From Caldimicrobium sp. (GTDB lineage: Bacteria > Desulfobacterota > Thermodesulfobacteria > Thermodesulfobacteriales > Thermodesulfobacteriaceae): a stretch of DNA of 36,442 bases. Shown here one piece after another: positions 32,493 to 36,433 of this stretch; within the stretch, counting starts at the first letter, position 1; each line of letters opens with the position of its first letter. The position numbers and the translations under genes were made by a program. A model generated the notes under the pieces. It made no database searches. It was given only the letters and a program-made list of their open reading frames with translations, and was not told where the DNA came from. The stretch is taken from assembly GCA_009903935.1 (NCBI GenBank), contig WYEG01000012.1, positions 1 to 36,442 on the forward strand, in the 5' to 3' direction.

Positions 32493-32521
32493 AAAAAGTC
32501 TACCTTTAAATAAAATAAAAA

Positions 32522-32593
32522 AGCGGGCAACGGGATTCGAACCCGCGACCCCCAGCTTGGGAAGCTGGTGCTCTACCCCTGAGCTATGCCCGC
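32522..32593 (-). tRNA. tRNA-Gly (CCC)
   Basis: Cloverleaf on the minus strand: acceptor GCGGGCA/TGCCCGC, anticodon stem CCAGC/GCTGG with loop TTCCCAA (anticodon CCC), T arm GCGGG-TTCGAAT-CCCGT, discriminator U as normal for bacterial tRNA-Gly. CCA is not encoded. It heads the rimP-nusA-ylxR unit, with its own promoter upstream. Confidence 0.95.
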
Positions 32594-32604
32594 TTCATTT
32601 TAAT

Positions 32605-32698: not shown

Positions 32699-34267
32699 AT
32701 GAAAGATTTTCTGAAACCACATCAATTAATGTTGACAAAAATTTCAAGTTTATTAAATTTACGGTTAATGCTTAAAGTATTCTTACCCTTTTTAAAGAAA
32801 ATTTTAATCCTTTTGGCTTTATTATTTCTCCCTTATTTAGCCTTTGCCTACGAAGATCAAACTGAAAAACGGCTAAATCTTTGGCCTTTTTTTGTCTATT
32901 CCAAGCATAAACCTAAAAATCTTACGAGGATTGAGCTTTTAGGTCCGTTTATTTCTAAAACCTCAAGCCCTAAAGAGGAAAGCTTTTCTCTCCGCCCTAT
33001 TTATTCGTCTGTGAAGGAGATTAAAGACAATAAAACTATAGAAAAAAGAGCTTATTTTATTTCACCCCTCGGGCTATATAGAGAGAATGAAGAAGAAATA
33101 AGATTCAAGCTTATACCCCTTGTGGATAAAAGCATCAAAAAGGACCCCTCTGAAAATGAAGGGCAAAAATGGGATTTCTTCCCCTTCTTTGCTGGTAAAA
33201 CGGTAAACAACGAAACTTATGGGGGCGTCTTCCCCATTTATGGAATCTATAAAGAAAGGTTCGGTGCAAAAGAAATATCCTTCTTTCTCTGGCCCCTTTA
33301 TTCAAGAGTGTCTTACGACAACTACACAGCCTATAACATCATTTGGCCGTTTATAAGAGTGGCTAAGCCAACAAATAACGAAGATAAAACCTACGGGGGC
33401 TTCAAATTTTGGCCTTTTTATGGACATTTTAAGGAAGGAGAAGAGGAAAGAAAGTTTATTCTATGGCCCTTTTACATTAGTTACTACTACCAAGACGATA
33501 CGGGAAATTTTGTAAAGCGACGCTATTTCTTTCCTTTCTACATGAAGGAAGACACCGAATCCTACGAAAAAAGAATCTATCTATGGCCATTTTTCCAAAA
33601 GGTCTGTGGATTTGACCCTCCTTATTATCAGCTTGATGCTCCTTGGCCCTTCTATAGAAAGATCAAAGGAGAAGATATCGAGGGTAAACGCTACTGGCCT
33701 ATCTACGGGTATGTTTCCAAACCAGATTCTAAGGAATTTTTCATCCTCTGGCCCTTTTATTTCTACCGCGAAGATTGGTATAATTCAACTAAAAGCTCAA
33801 CTGTAGAAAATGAAGTACGTTTTCTCCTTTTTTCAAAATCCTATGAAGAAAAAACAAATGGAACCCTTACAAAATCTGAGTTTCGACTCTGGCCTCTCTA
33901 TTATTCCTACCACCAATACGTTTCCCCCAAACAAGAAGCTTTTTATTTCCCTGCCATCCTCCCCTTCTTTGACGAAGGAATGGAAAGAAACTACGGACCG
34001 TTGCTCAAACTTTACGAAGCCTACTCTAAGGAAGATTACACCTTTTCTAAAGCCTTATTTGGTTTTTATCGACACGAAAAGTTCGGAAGGAGAAATGTGG
34101 TTGAATTGGCCTTTTTGCTAAGATATATTGATGACGAACATACGCACTATGTTGAGTTTTTAGAAGGCTTGATCGGATGGGGGCTTATTGATGGAAAAAA
34201 ACTCATTAAAGTCCTTTATATTCCAATCCAACTTACACCTCAATCTCCAACAACCGAAGGGAACTAA
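32699..34267 (+). CDS. Exported WPF-repeat protein of unknown function
   Basis: Up to 522 residues. A hydrophobic signal or anchor lies near 29-49 (LPFLKKILILLALLFLPYLAFA), then the mature chain. From residue 60 to about 480 it has roughly 20 degenerate units of 18-24 residues, each with a short hydrophobic core such as LWPFF, FWPFY, IIWPFI, YWPIY or LWPLY, followed by a charged stretch. This pattern fits a beta-strand repeat, perhaps an outer-membrane barrel or a periplasmic solenoid. I recognise no named family. The start is uncertain: none of the candidate ATG codons (32699, 32729, 32768) has a good ribosome-binding site. coaD begins immediately after its stop. Confidence 0.8.
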   Translation: MKDFLKPHQLMLTKISSLLNLRLMLKVFLPFLKKILILLALLFLPYLAFAYEDQTEKRLNLWPFFVYSKHKPKNLTRIELLGPFISKTSSPKEESFSLRPIYSSVKEIKDNKTIEKRAYFISPLGLYRENEEEIRFKLIPLVDKSIKKDPSENEGQKWDFFPFFAGKTVNNETYGGVFPIYGIYKERFGAKEISFFLWPLYSRVSYDNYTAYNIIWPFIRVAKPTNNEDKTYGGFKFWPFYGHFKEGEEERKFILWPFYISYYYQDDTGNFVKRRYFFPFYMKEDTESYEKRIYLWPFFQKVCGFDPPYYQLDAPWPFYRKIKGEDIEGKRYWPIYGYVSKPDSKEFFILWPFYFYREDWYNSTKSSTVENEVRFLLFSKSYEEKTNGTLTKSEFRLWPLYYSYHQYVSPKQEAFYFPAILPFFDEGMERNYGPLLKLYEAYSKEDYTFSKALFGFYRHEKFGRRNVVELAFLLRYIDDEHTHYVEFLEGLIGWGLIDGKKLIKVLYIPIQLTPQSPTTEGN

Positions 34268-34768
34268 ATGTTAGTTAAGCTTGCCATCTATCCAGGCACC
34301 TTTGACCCTATAACAAACGGTCATCTTGACATAGTTAAACGGGCCTTAAAGCTTTTTGACAGGCTAATCATTGCCATAGGAGAAAATCCAGCTAAGAAAC
34401 CTCTTTTTACCTTAGAAGAAAGAATTTTCATGATAAATGAAGCGATAAAAGACCTTCCTGAAAGAAATCTAATCGAAGTTGATAGCTTCAGCGGTCTTTT
34501 AGTTGACTACGCTAAAAGAAAAGGAGCCATTGCTATCATCAGGGGACTTAGAGCGGTATCCGATTTTGAATACGAACTACAATTAGCTTTGATGAACAGA
34601 AAACTTTCCAACTCCATCGATACGGTTTTTTTAATGCCCAGTCTAAAATGGATTTTCCTGAGCTCCTCAATAATTAAAGAAGCGGCAAAGTTCGGAGGGG
34701 ATGTATCAGACTTAGTTCCGCCCATAGTCGTCCAAAAACTAAAAGAAAAGTTTAGAGAAATGGAATAA
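34268..34768 (+). CDS. coaD: Phosphopantetheine adenylyltransferase
   Basis: 166-residue nucleotidyltransferase for the penultimate step of coenzyme A synthesis (4'-phosphopantetheine plus ATP to dephospho-CoA). It has the signature YPGTFDPITNGHLDIVKRA with the TxGH motif, IIRGLRAVSDFEYELQLALMNR, and the SSSIIKE segment near 137-143. Length is standard. Its ATG directly follows the stop of the WPF-repeat gene, with GAAGGGA upstream as ribosome-binding site, so translation is coupled. A DUF3108 gene follows after 36 bases. Confidence 0.97.
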   Translation: MLVKLAIYPGTFDPITNGHLDIVKRALKLFDRLIIAIGENPAKKPLFTLEERIFMINEAIKDLPERNLIEVDSFSGLLVDYAKRKGAIAIIRGLRAVSDFEYELQLALMNRKLSNSIDTVFLMPSLKWIFLSSSIIKEAAKFGGDVSDLVPPIVVQKLKEKFREME

Positions 34769-34804: not shown

Positions 34805-35503
34805 TTGCTACTAAGAATTTTTCTCTTTTTAGTAATAGTAACATCCGTATTAAGTAAAAATTCCTATTCATCATACTTTTTCTATGAAATTTATTTGGGT
34901 CCTATTAAAGTTGGAGAAAGTCAAATTAGCATTTTAAAGAGCTCAAACACTTTTAGTGCTAAGGTATACACAACTGGTTTAGGGAATATGATATATCCTT
35001 ATTATGCCACATGGGAAACAAAAGTTGAAAAAAATGGATATCCAATTCAAACAATTATTTATTCAAAGGAAAGAAGTAAAGAAAGAAAGAAAATCTTACA
35101 TTTTGATTCGAAGAATTCCGTAGTTTATGAAGAAAAATTTTTGCCTGAAAAAGAAAACAAAACGGTTAGAGTTTCTTTTCCTATACATGATGAACTTAGT
35201 GGTTTCATTTCTGTTTGGGATTGGAGTAAACTACCTCAAAAATCTTCTATACCTTTATACATAAAAAAAGAAAGAAAGTTTGCAACTGTTGAAATTCAAA
35301 CTAAGGAACCATGCGAATTCTTGAATAAAGAAATAATGTGTCAAACAATAAAAGTTACGCTACCAGAAAAAAGCGAACTATTGAAAAGGTCAAAAAATGT
35401 AATCATATACATGCACCCTCAAGAAAAATTCCCTGTTATCATTAAGGGAAACTTGCCACTATTTGGTAGTCTAAAAGCTGTATTGAAAAACTTTTCCCTT
35501 TAA
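34805..35503 (+). CDS. DUF3108 exported protein
   Basis: 232-residue secreted protein that resembles the DUF3108 family: after a signal peptide (LLRIFLFLVIVTSVLSKNS) comes YFFYEIYLGPIKVGESQI, then ATWETKVEKNGYPIQTIIYSKER and the late IYMHPQEKFPVIIKGNLPLFG. Family function is not known; the fold is a periplasmic beta-rich domain. It starts with TTG, with GAGGT 4 nt upstream. The coding sequence is more AT-rich than purL or ftsH by eye. It follows coaD on the same strand and its stop abuts that of the convergent J-domain gene. Location near an outer-envelope-type repeat protein is suggestive only. Confidence 0.8.
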   Translation: MLLRIFLFLVIVTSVLSKNSYSSYFFYEIYLGPIKVGESQISILKSSNTFSAKVYTTGLGNMIYPYYATWETKVEKNGYPIQTIIYSKERSKERKKILHFDSKNSVVYEEKFLPEKENKTVRVSFPIHDELSGFISVWDWSKLPQKSSIPLYIKKERKFATVEIQTKEPCEFLNKEIMCQTIKVTLPEKSELLKRSKNVIIYMHPQEKFPVIIKGNLPLFGSLKAVLKNFSL

Positions 35504-35504
35504 A

Positions 35505-36407
35505 TTAGAACCTTATTTTTAAAAAAGCTTCCATTACCTTTCTAATTCTTATGAATTTCTCCCTATCCCCACCCAAATCTGGATGATAAATTTTGATCTT
35601 TTCTCTAAAAAGCTTTAATATTTCTTTTTTGGAAAGACTGTATAAAGTTTCCAATGATACATTAAGAACATAGGCAACTTCTTTATAAATAGATTCCTCC
35701 ATCTTTAAATAAAAAGAAGGAACTCGCCTAATAGGTATAACATCAAAATATAACCAAACATATCTACAAAGATAATATTTAATTACTTCATCTTCTGACA
35801 AACCCATACGATAAGCTTCATCGCTAGCAATTTCACATAGCCTTTGGATAAAAAGCTTATCCTGATCTTCCTGAGTTGGAGTATAATTTAAGCCAAATAT
35901 TGCGTATAAATACCGAACTTTTTCTCTATAGTTTAGTTTGTCTTCAAAATTCCAGAGATAATTTTCGATTTCATCTCTTGATTTCTCAATCAGTTCACGA
36001 TAGAAAGGAAAAAACTTCTCTTCAACCCGCCATGGTTCCCTATGGTCTAACCTCAAGGCGATCAATCTTCTTCGGTCAAAAAAATGGACTTCCGATGGTG
36101 AAAATCTTGTAGTTGCCCTTTTAATAGGCTTTCTATTCAGAGAAAAATCGACCCATCTTTGAGCATCTTGCGTCAAAAAAGGATAAAAGACCTCTTCTAA
36201 CTCAAACTGGTCGGTTTGAACTCCAAGCTTTTTTAAATCCTCTTCCACGAGGATCGAAAAGGCAACATCACTATAATAATGAACATACTCACGAGGGTTT
36301 GTACCTAAATTTAATAAAACCTTAGTCTTCCAGTAAGGTGGGTCAAAATATGATTGATTAAGGGAATAAGAATAAACACCATTGACTAGCTTCCGACTTA
36401 TATACAT
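35505..36407 (-). CDS. Protein with C-terminal J domain
   Basis: 300-residue protein (from the ATG at 36407) with a J-domain-like C-terminus: about residues 240-300 have LSKKEILKLFREKIKIYHPDLGGDREKFIRI, including the HPD motif that stimulates DnaK-type chaperones. The first 235 residues have no family I recognise, are rich in Tyr, Phe, Arg and Glu, and lack a signal peptide or the Gly/Phe and zinc domains of true DnaJ. An in-frame TTG at 36425 (six residues longer) lies inside a hairpin loop and is less likely. The ATG has no clear ribosome-binding site. It is probably a specialised co-chaperone with an unknown client or target. Confidence 0.75.
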   Translation of the reverse strand: MYISRKLVNGVYSYSLNQSYFDPPYWKTKVLLNLGTNPREYVHYYSDVAFSILVEEDLKKLGVQTDQFELEEVFYPFLTQDAQRWVDFSLNRKPIKRATTRFSPSEVHFFDRRRLIALRLDHREPWRVEEKFFPFYRELIEKSRDEIENYLWNFEDKLNYREKVRYLYAIFGLNYTPTQEDQDKLFIQRLCEIASDEAYRMGLSEDEVIKYYLCRYVWLYFDVIPIRRVPSFYLKMEESIYKEVAYVLNVSLETLYSLSKKEILKLFREKIKIYHPDLGGDREKFIRIRKVMEAFLKIRF

Positions 36408-36410
36408 GAT

Positions 36411-36433
36411 AAAAGGGGGAGACAACCCCCCTT
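36411..36433 (-). terminator. Terminator-like hairpin just before the J-domain gene
   Basis: On the minus strand GGGGGG (36431-36426), TTGTCT, CCCCC (36419-36415) and TTTT (36414-36411) form a G-C stem followed by a short U-tract, only three bases before the ATG at 36407. It may end a gene outside the window or act as a leader attenuator. Confidence 0.5.

Follow-up and report, generated by a model that had tools for sequence, protein, structure and literature searches.

A Family of Exported Trp-Pro-Phe Repeat Proteins as a Candidate Outer-Membrane Component of Mla-Type Lipid Transport Systems

A 36,442-nucleotide stretch of a Caldimicrobium sp. genome (contig WYEG01000012.1; here called the window) encodes a protein in which a short Trp-Pro-Phe core recurs at regular intervals, and the question that it raises is what such a protein does for the cell. 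A preliminary description, made from the letters of the DNA, had taken it for an exported beta-strand repeat protein of no named family, perhaps an outer-membrane or solenoid structure. We consider it probable that this protein, here called WPF, works as the outer-membrane-side part of an MCE (Mla-type) lipid transport system of a third type. Veillonella parvula has a minimal system in which MlaEFD functions without MlaA and MlaC, and an elongated MlaD, fused to a barrel, is thought to bridge the periplasm (PMC10665443). The fused barrel occurs in only about 10% of MlaD sequences and in none from Planctomycetes or Verrucomicrobia, and the possibility of "as yet unidentified proteins" has been raised for barrel-less systems (PMC10665443). 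For the question of how Mla systems with neither MlaA nor a barrel reach the outer membrane, WPF is a concrete candidate, present in about 40 to 45% of sampled genomes from three phyla.

The gene is an open reading frame with exactly the boundaries first assigned to it (Table 1), and the export signal that had been proposed is present as an N-terminal hydrophobic stretch. Because the chains of its relatives begin about 25 residues ahead of a conserved YED, the true start may be M24 instead of M1. About nine relatives carry a lipoprotein-type signal, and in several members and lineages the lipobox Cys is followed by Ala or Ser. Under the sorting rule of Escherichia coli, Ala or Ser after the lipoprotein Cys fits attachment to the outer membrane, and by analogy these WPF signals would fit it as well.

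Table 1. Positions of the features discussed here within the window
Feature	Position	Strand	Basis or remark
WPF-hairpin protein gene	32699..34267	+	Open reading frame, 522 aa plus stop; translation may really begin at base 32768
N-terminal export signal region, residues 1-50	32699..32848	+	Hydrophobic stretch, modelled as a helix at 6-48; cleavage likely between AFA and YED
Repeat region, residues 56-415	32864..33943	+	Motif count and shuffles, DSSP of the model, covariation
Conserved interruption and strands after it, residues 412-463	33932..34087	+	Near-invariant columns, helices 426-436
coaD	34268..34768	+	TIGR01510, 7e-61; directly after the WPF stop codon
DUF3108 protein	34805..35503	+	Apparently exported
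306-aa protein	35505..36425	-	C-terminal stretch weakly similar to DnaJ (E 0.002, below cut-off)
tRNA-Gly (CCC)	32521..32594	-	Between rimP and the WPF gene

Beyond residue 50 the chain holds 13 copies of the strict motif [WF]P[FLI], whereas 2,000 shuffles of the same composition contained it 0.94 times on average and 5 times at most. Counting degenerate corners (GPF, RPI, SPL, IPL, and LPF) brings the total to about 18 Pro-centred units. The earlier figure of about 20 repeats was therefore right about regular units, with the number itself reached only by a looser four-residue pattern (20 units). The spacing is as regular as had been described, at 17 to 23 residues across most of the chain. 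When 55 relatives were aligned, the unit Pro was invariant or nearly so at most sites, the residue preceding it was W in 48% and F in 16% of alignment cells, and many of the unit tryptophans were nearly invariant. The units are thus real homologous features. Positions -2, -1, +1, and +2 around WP are 82 to 100% hydrophobic, and both faces are hydrophobic beside the WP turn. Near the end of the repeats, residues 412 to 463 follow the pattern LPFxDEGxERNxGPLLxLxE...LWGLYRxE, with two short helices, and are near-invariant in the alignment, which makes them a candidate functional site.

Neither the protein, nor its relatives, nor a profile built from it matched any Pfam, NCBIfam, or PDB entry at the curated threshold, in line with the original impression of an unknown family. 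A Pfam search of the window protein up to an E value of 1 returned no match, MORN (PF02493) and MlaA (PF04333) included, and among 28 relatives Pfam gave no MORN match and just two unrelated weak ones. On these grounds we rejected a MORN repeat identity for the window protein; an identity with MlaA was rejected for want of a PF04333 match and because the predicted structure is all-beta, whereas MlaA is an alpha-helical doughnut lipoprotein. The best subthreshold NCBIfam match was the Leptospira family LA_1737_Cterm (NF047486), found in 6 of the 55 members at an E value of 6e-4; one example spanned 47 residues and scored 19.8 bits, under the cut-off of 60. We set this weak likeness aside as a family identity, since it is subthreshold; it probably reflects common repeat composition, and a distant relationship is possible. 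Literature searches, whose coverage of subscription journals and preprints was thin, found no description of the WPF family.

WPF is thus a conserved, unnamed, exported family, single-copy in many Thermodesulfobacteriota, Verrucomicrobiota, and Planctomycetota. It occurred, nearly always as a single copy, in 47 of 60 relatives, in 43 of 96 Verrucomicrobiota sample genomes at E < 1e-50, and in 52 of 118 Planctomycetota sample genomes at E < 1e-20. A contig scan also located it in Nitrospinota and Syntrophaceae. Weak matches to the WPF profile lie in longer Verrucomicrobiota open frames of about 770 to 1,100 aa (G212:C24, G177:C42, and G249:C20), which may be hairpin-repeat paralogues.

Outside the window's own family (Caldimicrobium/Thermodesulfobacterium), the WPF gene lies in one operon with an MCE/Mla lipid ABC transporter. 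Its neighbors were identified as MlaE, MlaF, and MlaD by Pfam (PF02405, PF00005, and PF02470, respectively), and with MlaE, MlaF, and an MCE-domain MlaD encoded together these operons belong to the MCE/Mla systems. In most Thermodesulfobacteriota the genes run mlaE-mlaF-mlaD-WPF; in Verrucomicrobiota and Planctomycetota they run WPF-mlaE-mlaF-mlaD. In whole-genome matches, MlaD was encoded on the strand of WPF and within 4 kb of it in 39 of 48 WPF genomes of Thermodesulfobacteriota; the same held for 39 of the 43 Verrucomicrobiota genomes with a strong match, and the full WPF-mlaEFD operon was present in 18 of 20 Planctomycetota loci. At the Nitrospinota loci the WPF gene does not adjoin mla genes.

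In the window's own family, the gene sits upstream of coaD and away from the mla genes. The coaD cluster accompanies WPF at 16 loci; because this context is confined to that family we set it aside as a functional clue, and coaD probably stands outside the WPF system. The mlaEFD set of the window genome is on a separate contig (C13), and searches of that genome recovered neither MlaA nor MlaC. Genes for a dihydroxy-acid dehydratase and a UvrD-like helicase flank this set, and both were rejected as alternative partners of mlaEFD after the flanking genes were checked. Within the window, the DUF3108 gene downstream of coaD is kept with WPF-coaD at six own-family loci, the gene for the 306-aa protein is likewise kept at six loci, and a tRNA gene precedes WPF on the opposite strand.

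The distribution of WPF is inversely related to that of MlaA. In the Thermodesulfobacteriota phylum sample of 118 genomes, 48 encode WPF and 57 MlaA, with both in 8, where 23 were expected (odds ratio = 0.086, P = 9e-9 at the genome level, unadjusted for relatedness); MlaA is thus absent from 40 of the 48 WPF genomes. With families as the unit P becomes 0.025, so inheritance matters: the co-occurrence pattern is partly inherited, and genome counts overstate independence. Among the 60 relatives, MlaA was encoded by none of the 47 genomes with WPF versus 6 of the 13 without it, and MlaC by 1 of 47 versus 9 of 13.

The eight genomes that hold both WPF and MlaA give the impression of two Mla systems working in parallel. 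Each of them has at least two MlaD genes, and seven have a short MlaD (158 to 209 aa) besides a long one near WPF. In most of them an MlaD frame of 346 to 388 aa lies beside WPF and one of 158 to 209 aa on the contig with MlaA, as exemplified by the two sets of genome G060 (contigs C321 and C349). The WPF-side frame of 574 in genome G153 is inflated, with the protein start inside the frame, and genomes G102 and G066 fit the two-set pattern less neatly.

Lengths of MlaD follow the same division. Measured from stop to stop, which can overstate protein length, MlaD frames were 148 to 257 aa beside MlaA and had a median near 350 beside WPF; among the frames listed, those of at least 480 aa fell in none of the WPF genomes without MlaA and in 16 of the 20 genomes with neither WPF nor MlaA. 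The long MlaD proteins that we read end in barrel-like sequence, as judged by eye, in agreement with what is reported for Veillonella (PMC10665443). From these length and co-occurrence patterns three alternatives appear: a short MlaD paired with MlaA, an MlaD that bears its own barrel, and a medium MlaD paired with WPF. Neither of the known outer-membrane components, MlaA or an MlaD barrel, was found as part of the WPF systems. Some Thermodesulfobacteriota encode MlaEFD with no MlaA, WPF, or long MlaD detected (G046:C61, at locus L112; G083; and G064:C324, at locus L102) and possibly represent a fourth outer-membrane solution; that G064 and a few others have no known partner and no WPF implies that further Mla partners exist.

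The MlaD that adjoins WPF is itself distinctive. Behind a transmembrane helix and an MCE domain come GxGTLGKLxxD repeats, and the C terminus is a hydrophobic tail, with the motif PxSVLG, in which a Pro is fixed; its size is roughly 280 to 440 aa with the helical extension. The tail was present in 29 of 30 WPF-linked MlaD proteins, the exception being cut by a contig end, and it also occurs in the window genome's own MlaD. A related form, APIxxFxxxLFxxF, is found in Planctomycetota, and the tail was absent from the MlaD proteins that we read from WPF-less genomes. AlphaFold gave the transmembrane helix, a confident MCE domain, and then only low-confidence helix, with no barrel.

We then turn to the WPF fold. 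An AlphaFold model built from 55 sequences (mean pLDDT of 92.2, pTM of 0.77) was all-beta, and DSSP assigned about 46 strands with a length near 6 residues, which bears out the proposed beta-strand repeat architecture. The repeat region consists of pairs of these strands joined alternately by W/F-P-F/L/Y turns and by charged turns, each W/F-P-F forming a break of 3 to 4 residues between two strands. Three layouts were compared by charge covariation in 142 sequences (Neff = 106). Pairing of strands across each WP, at symmetric positions, gave a mean r of -0.050 (standard error [SE], 0.011) and pairing across the charged turns gave -0.027 (SE, 0.012), while controls fell between -0.007 and +0.022. 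The pairing needed by long kinked strands gave +0.019 (SE, 0.009), and for equivalent strands of neighboring repeats (A-A' and B-B', as in a solenoid) covariation was about 0. These values support the view that WP is a hairpin turn and that the chain meanders in antiparallel fashion, hydrophobic along its WP edge and charged along the other, although they are support and not proof, because the effects are small and common ancestry was only partly controlled.

Pairing across WP disfavors both a solenoid and a simple barrel. Structure searches returned antiparallel sheets, OspA, MORN proteins, and ApoB but no global match, with TM scores of at most 0.34 among the matches listed. The solenoid suggested in the preliminary description was therefore rejected in its parallel beta form, given the missing A-A' and B-B' covariation and matches that are antiparallel meanders. 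None of the 50 top-ranked PDB structure matches was an outer-membrane barrel; in a comparison of strand length and residue pattern, the strands measured about 6 residues versus about 9 to 11 in such barrels, and no dyad pattern was seen. The first guess at the fold was thus partly right, and WPF is a candidate for the missing outer-membrane component where MlaA and an MlaD barrel are absent.

Three other explanations of WPF have to be weighed against a role at the outer membrane. It could be a lipid conduit or scaffold that spans the periplasm, running alongside the helical part of MlaD or wrapped about it, a MORN-like rod whose aromatic edge offers a path for acyl chains. The operon and co-occurrence evidence would fit this equally well, 46 consecutive strands could stretch across much of the periplasm, the structure matches are elongated meanders, and the hydrophobic faces beside the WP turn suit such a path. 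Yet the long helical part of MlaD could already span the periplasm, the components that WPF is exchanged for, MlaA or a fused barrel, are both outer-membrane elements, and the lipoprotein signals fit attachment to a membrane at one end, so we regard a conduit as unlikely.

A conventional outer-membrane beta-barrel of about 22 long strands kinked at WP is considerably less likely still. Each unit does have a hydrophobic segment, about 9 residues long and flanked by charge, and short constant spacings alternate with long variable ones between units, like the turns and loops of a barrel (one-sided P = 0.008), an alternation that the hairpin model does not account for. Against this, the model splits each strand at WP into two, and covariation pairs the halves across WP instead of giving the pairing of a barrel. 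Of the outer-membrane idea first put forward, then, the connection is likely by operon, co-occurrence, and lipobox, but a conventional barrel is not supported. The least probable explanation is that WPF is merely an operon neighbor of mlaEFD with another envelope function, such as that of a wall or surface layer protein. The move of the gene out of the mla operon to its place before coaD would suit this, but elsewhere WPF is kept beside mlaEFD in three phyla and two gene orders, it trades off with MlaA, MlaC, and barrel-MlaD, and it is matched by the MlaD tail.

For the favored reading, an outer-membrane end of an Mla system, we propose the following arrangement. MlaE, the permease, and MlaF, the ATPase, would sit in the inner membrane, and the barrel-less MlaD, with one transmembrane helix, an MCE ring, and a long helical C-terminal part, would extend outward with its conserved hydrophobic tail. 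The exported WPF protein, lipid-anchored in some lineages, is predicted to fold into an antiparallel meander of about 46 short beta-strands, its Trp-Pro-Phe turns lining a hydrophobic edge and its charged turns the other edge. We infer that WPF associates with the outer membrane through this hydrophobic edge, receives the MlaD tails, and passes phospholipid between the outer membrane and MlaD. It would thereby do the job of E. coli MlaA (plus MlaC) or of the MlaD-fused barrel of Veillonella. Because a normal membrane-spanning barrel needs strands longer than about 6 residues, contact between WPF and the membrane may be shallow or absent. We see an even chance that this is a third MCE architecture across three phyla, with a single-layer beta-hairpin protein as its outer-membrane end and a fold new to lipid transport.

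These systems resemble E. coli Mla (MlaA-OmpC, MlaC, and MlaFEDB) in their MlaE/MlaF/MlaD core operon and in having an extra exported, sometimes lipid-anchored component. They differ in the absence of MlaA and MlaC, in an MlaD with a helical extension and hydrophobic tail, and in WPF being an all-beta repeat protein unrelated to MlaA. With V. parvula they share MlaEFD without MlaA and MlaC (PMC10665443), but their MlaD is barrel-less, and the gene next to it supplies WPF as a separate protein. The repeats themselves recall MORN-repeat proteins and OspA, with units of about 20 residues that form beta-hairpins in a long antiparallel single-layer meander, although the structural matches are weak; WPF has W/F-P-F/L turns in place of the Gly-rich MORN units, is exported in Gram-negative bacteria, and is tied to mla genes. 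In chloroplasts, the TGD system combines an MCE permease, ATPase, and substrate-binding protein (TGD1/2/3) with TGD4, a beta-rich outer-envelope protein held to be a barrel. Compared by description, it too has a separate beta-rich outer-membrane protein beside an MCE transporter, but WPF does not model as a barrel.

The MlaD tail together with the WPF gene offers a signature for annotating many envelopes, and WPF could prove to be a new kind of beta architecture for handling lipids. At seven Verrucomicrobiota loci (L072, L074, L079, L081, L082, L084, and L085), a gene for an MMPL/RND-type transporter of about 780 to 940 aa lies directly upstream of WPF-mlaEFD, with PF03176 recognized in the L072 copy; it is perhaps a further lipid component of the envelope.
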